DNA of 10,092 nt. Origin: Actinomycetota bacterium. Lineage in GTDB: Bacteria; Actinomycetota; Actinomycetes; Nanopelagicales; Nanopelagicaceae. Position numbers and translations under genes: made by a program. Under the pieces are notes generated by a model. It was not told where the DNA came from and ran no database searches. It saw nothing but the letters and a program-made list of their open reading frames with translations. Of the stretch, positions 2,217 through 7,355 are shown piece by piece. Every line of letters starts with the position of its first letter. The stretch's first letter is position 1. Location of the stretch: NCBI GenBank assembly GCA_005777515.1, contig SXMA01000096.1:1-10092 (forward strand), in the 5' to 3' direction.

Positions 2217-2235
2217 CTTAATAAATCAAGAGTTG
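2217..2235 (+). repeat. 19-bp conserved intergenic element, copy 1
   Basis: The sequence CTTAATAAATCAAGAGTTG is repeated in inverted orientation at 7355-7337, with 18 of 19 positions identical (A versus T at position 12). Both copies lie in divergent intergenic regions of this locus and both are followed by AGACCA(C/G)T, after 12 bases here and 16 bases in the other copy. Such a match between two noncoding regions points to a shared regulatory element, either an operator or a promoter core. Its orientation cannot be decided from the sequence: read one way it faces the binding-protein gene, read the other way it faces PIG-L. Confidence 0.6.
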
Positions 2236-2246
2236 GTGGGTATTTT
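2218..2246 (+). promoter_or_regulatory. Candidate promoter of the sugar transporter operon
   Basis: A possible -35 box TTAATA (2218-2223) and -10 box TATTTT (2241-2246) are 17 bases apart; each matches the sigma-70 consensus at four of six positions. The AGACCACT half-site starts two bases after the -10, where a repressor would cover the transcription start. The other copy of the 19-bp element lacks a -10 at this spacing, so the call is tentative. Confidence 0.3.
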
Positions 2247-2255
2247 TAGACCACT
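2247..2255 (+). promoter_or_regulatory. Dre-like half-site TAGACCACT upstream of the binding-protein gene
   Basis: TAGACCACT equals one full arm of the DasR-type operator described for actinobacteria, A(C/G)TGGTCTAGACCA(C/G)T; the opposite arm is not conserved here. It lies 17 bases before the ATG of the binding protein and directly after the candidate -10. It suggests control by a HutC-type GntR regulator such as the one encoded at 7379. Confidence 0.4.
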
Positions 2256-2257
2256 TA

Positions 2258-2269
2258 GGGGTGCGCCCC
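2258..2269 (+). promoter_or_regulatory. GC-rich hairpin over the Shine-Dalgarno of the binding-protein gene
   Basis: GGGGTGCGCCCC is a near-perfect 12-base palindrome (GGGG and CCCC arms, central GC, one T-G wobble). It includes the only Shine-Dalgarno-like run (AGGGG, 2257-2261) before ATG 2273. In RNA it could mask the ribosome site. Such a GC-rich block stands out in A+T-rich intergenic sequence. The regulatory role is inferred. Confidence 0.35.
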
Positions 2270-2272
2270 GCA

Positions 2273-3556
2273 ATGAAAGGAAAACACTTGTTAAAGAGAA
2301 GAAATTTCAAGGTAGTCGCTCTAGTTGCGGCTGCAGTTTTAACTCTGAGCGCATGTAGCAGTGACTCAGAATCTGGTGGTGAAGTAGGTGGAGAGATTAA
2401 TGTCTTTTTGATTCCTAGCCCATCATCTACCTCAATTCAGAGCTTTATTCCAGAGTTTGAAGCGGAAACTGGAATCAAAGTAAATGTATCTGAGACACCA
2501 TACGGTGAAGCACATCAGAAACAACTCCTTAGCTACAATCAAAAAGCGGGAGCATATGACATTGCACAATTTGACAACACATACTTAGCCCCGTTCTGCC
2601 AAGCCAAAGCAATGTTGCCTCTTGATTCATACATTTCTGGATCTGATGAATATGACATCAATGATTTTGGAAAAGGACAGCAAGATTATGGTAAGTGCAA
2701 GGGTGAGACCCTAGGTCTAACTCTAAGTACCGAGCCAATGATTCAATGGTACAGAACTGATCTCTACGAGAAGCTTGGATTAACTCCAGCTAAGACATGG
2801 GATGAGTACTACAACAATGCCAAGAAGGTTCAGGCTGCCGGATTTGGCGGACAGATCATGGGCTTTGGTCCAAACGTATCTTGGTGGTGGATGACGCTAG
2901 TTTGGTCATTTGGAGGAGCTCTCTACGACGAGAATCTCAATCCTGTGGTTAATTCGAAGGAAGCAGTTGCTGCCACTGATTATCTAAAGAAGTTACTTGA
3001 AGTCTCACCAAAGGGAGCAATTACGGCAACCGGTGATGACACCACAAGTAAATTCCTTGGTGAAGATATTGGAGCAATGCTCAACTACTCCGGATACTAT
3101 GGAATGGCTCTTGATCCAAGCATCAATAAGAATGCTGGAAAGATTGGTACAGCTCCAGCGCCTATGGGCACCGTAGACACCACCCATCTTGCTGGATGGA
3201 ATATCGGAGTCCCTGCTGATGCAAAGAATCCTGATGCTGCTTGGAAGTTCCTCGAATTCGTTCTAGGAAAGACCAATTCAGTGAAGTATCTTGAGTCAGG
3301 CGCGGCAGCGATTGGTCGCCAGTCAATTATCAACAATGCGGATTTAGTGGCAAAGAATCCATACCTACCGCAGTTGGAGATTCCATCAAGCTCACGCATT
3401 GAGAGATATCCACAAATTGCGGTTTGGCCAGAGTTTGAGGTTGCCGCAATTGATGCTGTAACTCAGGTTCTCACTGGGAAGCAGAAGTCTCAGGCAGCAT
3501 TGGATGCGCTCAACGAGAAGCTCAAACCGATACTTGCAAAAGAGCCTAAGAGCTAA
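2273..3556 (+). CDS. Sugar ABC transporter substrate-binding lipoprotein (CUT1 type)
   Basis: With the ATG at 2273 this is a 427-residue extracytoplasmic solute-binding protein of family 1. It starts with a lipoprotein signal peptide: basic residues 2-13, a hydrophobic core, and lipobox LSAC with Cys28 as the lipidated residue, then a Ser/Asp/Gly-rich linker. The mature part shows INVFLIPSPSS, the FEAETGIKVNV strand typical of this fold, and many aromatics that could stack on sugar rings (Trp204-206, Trp211, Tyr273, Tyr276, Trp309). Two further cysteines, 109 and 142, could form a disulfide. A GTG at 2261 in the same frame would add four residues, but it lacks a ribosome site and spoils the signal start, so ATG 2273 is preferred. 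It heads the transporter operon, with the first permease 46 bases downstream. The bound sugar cannot be read from sequence; context favours a beta-linked oligosaccharide or aminosugar. Confidence 0.9.
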   Translation: MKGKHLLKRRNFKVVALVAAAVLTLSACSSDSESGGEVGGEINVFLIPSPSSTSIQSFIPEFEAETGIKVNVSETPYGEAHQKQLLSYNQKAGAYDIAQFDNTYLAPFCQAKAMLPLDSYISGSDEYDINDFGKGQQDYGKCKGETLGLTLSTEPMIQWYRTDLYEKLGLTPAKTWDEYYNNAKKVQAAGFGGQIMGFGPNVSWWWMTLVWSFGGALYDENLNPVVNSKEAVAATDYLKKLLEVSPKGAITATGDDTTSKFLGEDIGAMLNYSGYYGMALDPSINKNAGKIGTAPAPMGTVDTTHLAGWNIGVPADAKNPDAAWKFLEFVLGKTNSVKYLESGAAAIGRQSIINNADLVAKNPYLPQLEIPSSSRIERYPQIAVWPEFEVAAIDAVTQVLTGKQKSQAALDALNEKLKPILAKEPKS

Positions 3557-3602
3557 TCAACTCAAAGACTAAGGCTTGGGCCTGGCACAATAGTGAAAGA
3601 GA

Positions 3603-6607: not shown

Positions 6608-7206
6608 ACAGAAAAACGCTTTCCAACCACTATTTCATCTCCACGCTTTAATAGTTCGGTATATCCAAGTGCTGCATAAAACTTCAAACCTCGATCGTTA
6701 TAAGCCGACACCCGAAGATGAAAACCGGGAGAGCCAAGGTCTTTTAGCTGGTTCTCCATATGTGTCATTAGTTTTTTACCCCAACCTTTTCCTTGAACTT
6801 GAGGCAGCAAATCTATGTGTCCGTGGGAGGGAAAGTTTTCAAGTACTTCAGATGGTGAAGGAGTAGGAGAAAATATCTCACGGATTAACCATTCATCTTC
6901 ACTAAAATGTTTTAACTCTGCATATTTGATTTGTAATTGCGGCCACCAATGCTCGATGCAGAGATTTTGAAAAATTTCGGTATCAGGGACACAAAGCCCA
7001 TATCCAACGGTTTTTCCTGACTCAGAAAGAAGATTGCTAGTCTCACTAGCATGAGTCACATAAGGCCCAACAAAAATTTCACCCAGCATCTGATCATTTC
7101 TAAATAGGGCTGTCGCATCACTTCCAGAGTTGCCAGTTTTTAAAGCCACAAAGTACAAATCAACTAAATCTCCGAGCGTTGCCGGTCTAATCTCAATTTC
7201 TGGCAT
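6604..7206 (-). CDS. GNAT acetyltransferase resembling the O-GlcNAcase C-terminal domain
   Basis: From ATG 7206-7204 this is a 200-residue GNAT protein; AGGAG lies 11 bases upstream. A longer frame begins at a TTG at 7287, but it lacks a ribosome site and adds an Arg/Lys-rich, family-atypical 27 residues. It starts IEIRPATLGDLVDLY, has the acetyl-CoA loop QVQGKGWG (136-143) and ends with LRVSAYNDRGLKFYAALGY (164-182). The middle, with HWWPQLQIKYA (86-96) and ENFPSHGHIDLLP (123-135), recalls from memory the acetyltransferase-like C-terminal domain of human O-GlcNAcase (W..F...KY, then NFPS...MDIH). Its bacterial relatives are stand-alone GNATs of unknown substrate. It is the first gene of an operon with the GH1 enzyme and overlaps it by four bases, suggesting that the acetyl acceptor is a sugar handled by this locus. 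The GNAT family call is firm; the OGA-like subfamily is likely; the substrate is unknown. Confidence 0.75.
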   Translation of the reverse strand: MPEIEIRPATLGDLVDLYFVALKTGNSGSDATALFRNDQMLGEIFVGPYVTHASETSNLLSESGKTVGYGLCVPDTEIFQNLCIEHWWPQLQIKYAELKHFSEDEWLIREIFSPTPSPSEVLENFPSHGHIDLLPQVQGKGWGKKLMTHMENQLKDLGSPGFHLRVSAYNDRGLKFYAALGYTELLKRGDEIVVGKRFSV

Positions 7207-7249
7207 AGGATAATAATCTCCTACTCGTAGTTGCTTTGGCGAGCGCGCT

Positions 7250-7257
7250 CTGGTCTG
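7250..7257 (-). promoter_or_regulatory. CAGACCAG octamer in the leader of the GNAT-GH1 operon
   Basis: CTGGTCTG on the plus strand is the same octamer seen at 2108, 2175 and 7314. It lies 43 bases upstream of the GNAT start codon, where a bound repressor could block transcription. It would be coding if the longer TTG start of GNAT were real. The role is inferred from recurrence and position. Confidence 0.35.
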
Positions 7258-7308
7258 TCGCCATTTGAGCCAATAACCCCTATTCAAGGGTAAAAAACTC
7301 GACCTACT

Positions 7309-7322
7309 TCAGACTGGTCTGA
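7309..7322. promoter_or_regulatory. Palindromic candidate operator TCAGAC-TG-GTCTGA
   Basis: A perfect inverted repeat with six-base arms and a two-base centre. It contains ACTGGTCT (7313-7320), an exact arm of the DasR-type consensus A(C/G)TGGTCT. It lies between the divergent regulator gene and the GNAT-GH1 operon, 56 bases before the regulator start, and is the most symmetric of the related sites. Control of both directions, including autoregulation of the GntR gene, is the simplest reading. Confidence 0.5.
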
Positions 7323-7325
7323 TAT

Positions 7326-7354
7326 TTGTTCCCGCTCAACTCTAGATTTATTAA
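7326..7354 (+). promoter_or_regulatory. Candidate promoter of the GntR regulator gene
   Basis: TTGTTC (7326-7331) and TATTAA (7349-7354) are spaced by 17 bases, which would place the transcription start near 7361, some 18 bases before ATG 7379. The -35 is weak (three of six to consensus). The -10 lies inside the 19-bp conserved element, and the palindrome at 7309-7322 ends just before the -35. Confidence 0.25.
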
Positions 7355-7355
7355 G
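7337..7355 (-). repeat. 19-bp conserved intergenic element, copy 2
   Basis: On the minus strand this reads CTTAATAAATCTAGAGTTG, identical to 2217-2235 except for one base. The change creates a TCTAGA centre, giving an imperfect palindrome AAnTCTAGAnTT. On the same strand it is followed after 16 bases by AGACCAGT, mirroring the arrangement of copy 1. It starts 24 bases from the GntR start codon. Confidence 0.6.

Follow-up and report, generated by a model that had tools for sequence, protein, structure and literature searches.

Near-identical 19-mers at a sugar-uptake locus of Nanopelagicaceae: probable -35 regions of divergent promoters, with candidate GntR half-sites apart from them

Introduction

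Two divergent intergenic gaps on a contig of a Nanopelagicaceae bacterium (Actinomycetota; SXMA01000096.1 of assembly GCA_005777515.1) share an almost identical 19-bp sequence in inverted orientation. What role can be assigned to such a pair, and is it the place at which the regulator encoded beside it acts? The stretch of 10,092 nucleotides analysed in its entirety is called here the window. A preliminary description of it, made from the sequence alone, proposed a locus-specific composite operator or promoter core consisting of the 19-mer and the octamer AGACCA(C/G)T that follows it. The reading favoured here, to which we give a probability of roughly 0.6, is that the 19-mers are -35 regions of divergent promoters and that the GntR regulator would act at separate TGGTCT half-sites; the arrangement as a whole is ordinary.

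The Locus and Its Relatives

The locus begins with genes of an Fe-ADH-like protein and a PIG-L deacetylase on the minus strand, followed by a sugar ABC transporter (binding protein and two permeases) on the plus strand, a GNAT acetyltransferase and a GH1 beta-glucosidase on the minus strand, and finally the GntR/UTRA regulator, a SIS protein, and an SDR on the plus strand; the features discussed are listed in Table 1. The nearest NCBIfam model of the Fe-ADH-like protein (348-1358) is that of glycerol-1-phosphate dehydrogenase, with a score of 118, far below the 413-bit cut-off. The start of the transporter binding protein is better placed at the TTG at 2288, since L042, L043, and L038 have no ATG matching that at 2273, while the GAAAGGA/GAGAGGA box is retained.

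Eight loci were compared, the window and seven syntenic relatives, L007, L008, L009, L010, L042, L043, and L038, four of the loci coming from a search of genome contigs; L007, L009, and L010 are the same records as genomes G092, G114, and G086, respectively. The identity of the GntR protein to that of the window is 89-92% in L007-L010, 85% in L042, 58% in L043, and 59% in L038. As L007 and L008 are near-duplicates in the two gaps, the eight rows of the alignment represent fewer independent cases. All counts per locus were taken from this alignment, and a separate count of half-sites covered four of the eight loci. At E <= 1e-40 the GntR protein has matches in 14 of 296 genomes of the family, and a gene-order search over the same number of genomes (296) yielded no additional loci. 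Left out of the counts were L044-L047, L040, and L041, with GntR proteins 35-40% identical and a different gene order, and L016 (48%), whose contig does not hold a complete locus; L034-L037, L017, and L018 cover, in shorter pieces, places already represented. In L042 (genome G223) the GH1 gene is gone from between the GNAT gene and the second permease gene (10929-10964), the remaining locus being retained.

Table 1. Coordinates of the genes and sequence elements discussed, with conservation among the eight loci
Feature	Position	Strand	Remarks
PIG-L deacetylase	1355..2155	-	PF02585; TTG start after GGAGG
Transporter solute-binding protein	2288..3556	+	SBP_bac_1; start moved to TTG 2288
GNAT acetyltransferase	6604..7209	-	leads the GNAT-GH1 pair
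gntR, GntR/UTRA (HutC-subfamily) regulator, DasR/NagR-like	7379..8113	+	Pfam and best solved relatives
19-mer copy 1	2217..2235	+	gap between PIG-L (-) and transporter binding protein (+)
19-mer copy 2	7337..7355	-	gap between GNAT-GH1 (-) and gntR (+)
Octamer AGACCACT	2248-2255	+	12 bases past copy 1; kept in 0/7 relatives
Octamer AGACCAGT	complement of 7313-7320	-	16 bases past copy 2
Predicted -35 box TTGATT, PIG-L operon	2224..2229	-	17 nt to AACAAT; 6/8 loci
Predicted -10 box AACAAT, PIG-L operon	2201..2206	-	7/8 loci; AAGAAT at the aligned place in L043
Predicted -35 box TTAATA, transporter operon	2218..2223	+	17 nt upstream of TATTTT; 6/8 loci
Predicted -10 box TATTTT, transporter operon	2241..2246	+	GTAYTTT in 8/8 loci
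Predicted -35 box TAGATT, gntR	7343..7348	+	17 nt upstream of TACCCT; 7/8 loci, missing in L038
Predicted leaderless -10 box TACCCT, gntR	7366..7371	+	7 nt before ATG; 8/8 loci
TGGTCT half-site	2109..2114	-	inside the start of the PIG-L ORF; 6/8 loci
Tandem TGGTCT half-sites (2171, 2176), probable GntR operator	2171..2181	-	downstream of the predicted PIG-L start
Second TGGTCT half-site	7251..7256	+	gap before GNAT; 7/8 loci, not L043
CAGACTGGTCTGATATT, probable GntR operator	7310..7326	+	TGGTCT (7315-7320) in 7/8 loci, not L043

The 19-mer Pair

Both 19-mers of the preliminary description are present, inverted with respect to each other and identical at 18 of 19 positions, as found by direct reading of the sequence and by a match search, and the pair stands at the top of the list of inverted repeats of the window. 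Its excess over chance, previously a rough estimate, was confirmed by shuffling: two matches with up to three mismatches occurred in 0 of 200 shuffles of the whole window, and none of 1000 dinucleotide-preserving shuffles attained the best match of one gap against the other, 18; their best 19-mer matches had a mean of 12.98 and a maximum of 15. The assembly to which the window belongs (946,647 bases, 68.36% complete) holds copies 1 and 2 as the only sites with up to two mismatches, and four further sites with three. The octamers were also found at both copies, at distances of 12 and 16 bases.

In the relatives this likeness is much reduced. With the register kept, copy 1 and copy 2 have 15, 15, 15, and 14 of 19 positions in common in L007, L008, L009, and L010, values reached by 43, 35, 25, and 219 of 1000 shuffles, respectively. 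For the first three of these loci no value higher than 15 was obtained between the gaps; in L010 (tied at 14), L042 (14), and L043 (12) a different pair gave the best match, within chance. L038 lacks the 19-mer, and there the gaps match best at two TGGTCT sites (15; 70 of 1000 shuffles). Since the copies of the relatives agree at no more than 15 of 19 positions, in some cases within chance, the near-identity of 18/19 is particular to the genome of the window. The sole shared part of the 19-mer that is kept is its core, CTWGATTTAT, common to both places in six of the eight loci; it is for this core that the conservation at orthologous loci anticipated earlier was found.

The genome search proposed in the preliminary description, passed by the 19-mer with its two sites, was failed by the conserved 10-bp core, which has 16 sites in the window's assembly versus 13 for the pattern read backwards. 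Summed across 24 genomes of the genus, the figures are 287 versus 250 for the reversed control; being hardly above the control in either set, the core was rejected as a genome-wide element. No titles on this element were found in the literature searched, a limited search that does not prove their absence.

A composite operator, in which the 19-mer and AGACCA(C/G)T together are bound by the GntR protein, would account for the occurrence of both parts at both places in the window and for the conservation of AGACCAGT past copy 2 in seven of the eight loci. It is nevertheless highly improbable: AGACCACT past copy 1 is conserved in none of the seven relatives, which leaves the 12-base gap without a conserved equivalent; the gap lengths differ at the two copies; and half-sites of the GntR type are conserved where there is no 19-mer, as in L038. 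The composite operator was therefore rejected, while the other half of the original proposal, a promoter core in both divergent regions, remains plausible for CTWGATTTAT.

The Promoters

Within copy 2, whose outer letters vary, CTAGATTT (read on the plus strand) is present in seven of the eight loci, exactly 17 nt upstream of TAC[C/G]CT. In L043 it stands without an indel although most of the surrounding sequence differs, and an eight-base conserved run of such length arose in 9 of 20000 shuffles. L038 retains the -10 box of gntR with no recognisable hexamer upstream. In all eight loci TAC[C/G]CT is followed by 7 nt and the ATG of gntR. A TANNNT box 6-7 nt ahead of the start codon is a sign of a leaderless gene, and TACCCT with its 7 nt conforms to it, so that the gntR promoter looks like one of the leaderless TANNNT type. 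Transcription would start at the ATG itself, and copy 2 would carry the -35 box of this promoter.

How common such promoters may be in the lineage is indicated by 288 kb of the relative G092, where TANNNT lies 6-7 nt ahead of 44 of 451 candidate starts, as compared with about 4 expected from internal codons; this excess is a sign of leaderless transcription. TANNNT boxes and many leaderless genes have been described in Mycobacterium tuberculosis, with no -35 motif found (PMC3898074). The leaderless promoters of M. tuberculosis resemble those discussed here in the position of TANNNT 6-7 nt before the start, in the large number of genes concerned, and in having no general -35 consensus; they differ in that a core is conserved at the -35 position at the present locus, where the starts are predicted from sequence.

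Among 50 leaderless-type promoters of G092 there is no -35 consensus. In 75,934 intergenic bases words of the TTGA type showed no clear spacing peak, and TTNNCA, with 16 occurrences at spacing 17, was the only word with any excess, a small one. A scan with a consensus promoter found no promoter in either gap. The pattern TWGATT-17-TANNNT-7-ATG has six hits in 24 genomes, four of them gntR orthologues, versus six for the reversed control, and a general class of this form was rejected. Measured against a -35 box of the sigma-70 type, the locus shows the spacing of 17 nt and the conservation, with consensus at the genome level and scan match both absent; as no general -35 consensus was found, the -35 role is proposed on the basis of the fixed spacing and the conservation seen here.

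The TAGATT of copy 2 could instead be the -10 box of an additional gntR promoter, transcribed from about 7355, as it fits TANNNT and the same box precedes two leaderless-type starts in G092. This seems distinctly unlikely in view of the constant 17-nt distance to TAC[C/G]CT in seven of the eight loci, the lack of a ribosome-binding site in 7355-7378, and the corresponding TTGATT of copy 1, which does not fit TANNNT. The TTAATA of copy 2 was considered as a -35 box of the GNAT gene and rejected, as it is not kept in the relatives; no convincing GNAT promoter was found.

The first 14 letters of copy 1, CTTAATAAATCAAG, are identical in six of the eight loci (the window, L007-L010, and L042). If the -35 reading is right, the -35 boxes TTAATA, of the transporter, and TTGATT, of the PIG-L operon, overlap back to back within copy 1. 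At the transporter -35 place the two remaining loci have other hexamers at equal spacing, TTATCA-17-TACTTT in L043 and GTTACA-17-TACTTT in L038. On the PIG-L side, L038 has TTGTAT-17-AACAAT, and in L043 a TTGATA situated 4 bp off the aligned TTGATT place lies 17 nt from TTTATA and 19 nt from TATAAT. As a -10 box AACAAT is poor, which counts against the promoter reading.

The leader of the transporter operon contains a small possible hairpin, GGGGTGCGCCCC (2258-2269), whose form is kept in the relatives. Though visible in the alignment, it was no stabler than shuffled sequences in the four loci folded, and it was rejected. The Rfam scan of the window gave no match at the gathering score, and a known RNA element was dismissed as well.

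According to the favoured reading, each promoter would have retained the CTWGATTTAT core, the other matches among the 18 of 19 being specific to the window's genome. The same retention at both promoters in six of the eight loci, in a group that has no general -35 word, together with the length of the core, which exceeds a hexamer, might also point to another factor that acts in trans and co-ordinates the gntR and PIG-L promoters, either an activator seated at -35 or an alternative sigma factor. The spacing between core and -10 box is, however, exactly that of a -35 box, the core has no symmetry and no genome-wide enrichment (16 versus 13), and GntR is the only candidate factor at the locus. 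That CTWGATTTAT is a dedicated word through which such a factor would switch gntR and the PIG-L operon jointly, beside the GntR half-sites, can be considered a tentative, rather unlikely alternative; if true, it would be a second-factor word against a background of promoters that, elsewhere in the lineage, have no -35 consensus.

The GntR Regulator and Its Half-Sites

The regulator has a GntR winged helix (PF00392) and a UTRA domain (PF07702), both above the gathering score, as in members of the GntR/HutC group, and among solved structures its best relatives are DasR and YvoA/NagR. In NagR, Arg38 and Arg48 read the two guanines of the half-site, and the operator in the complex is GTGGTCTAGACCAC (PMC4333415). 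These base-reading arginines are matched by Arg31 and Arg41 of the present regulator; in contrast, the wing glycine of NagR, Gly69, is replaced by Arg62. The TGGTCT half-site is identical to that of the NagR/YvoA and DasR operators (PMC4333415); the second half-site is unrecognisable here, and the genes at the regulated locus are others than those of NagR/DasR. No dre operator of two half-sites (TGGTCTAGACCA-like) was found at the locus, nor is there an inverted partner half at the dre spacing, the conserved sites being single TGGTCT words or tandems. From these comparisons, the HutC-subfamily regulator probably reads a half-site of the DasR/NagR kind and is here called no more than DasR/NagR-like.

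In G092 the frequency of TGGTCT is 0.53 per kb, both strands taken together. The tandem at 2171-2181 is present in six of the eight loci, reduced to a single word in L043 and to a single word of opposite orientation in L038. The half-site at 2109 overlaps codons, and protein constraint may explain its conservation. As to the 19-mers, the conserved half-sites precede copy 1, read on its own strand, and follow copy 2. The longer word YTGGTCTRATA has three exact sites in the genome, of which two belong to the window and the third, C43:4266, falls within a mechanically defined ORF of 425 aa; with one mismatch it has 68 sites versus 40 in the reversed control. Separately, in L016 (48%) the palindrome TAGACCGGTCTA and a second CCGGTCTAAT are found upstream of gntR, with half-sites opposite in order to those of the dre site.

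Judged by these patterns of conservation, separate TGGTCT half-sites are likelier GntR sites than the 19-mer. The GntR/HutC protein would repress from half-sites apart from the 19-mers, some just downstream of the predicted PIG-L start, the others between gntR and the GNAT-GH1 pair.

Conclusions

The actinobacterial group concerned is known chiefly through metagenome assemblies. The analysis yields a testable map of promoters and operators for a sugar-uptake locus of this group, and it points to a frequent use of leaderless TANNNT promoters there. For the regulator, the search for binding sites shifts from the 19-mer to the conserved TGGTCT half-sites.
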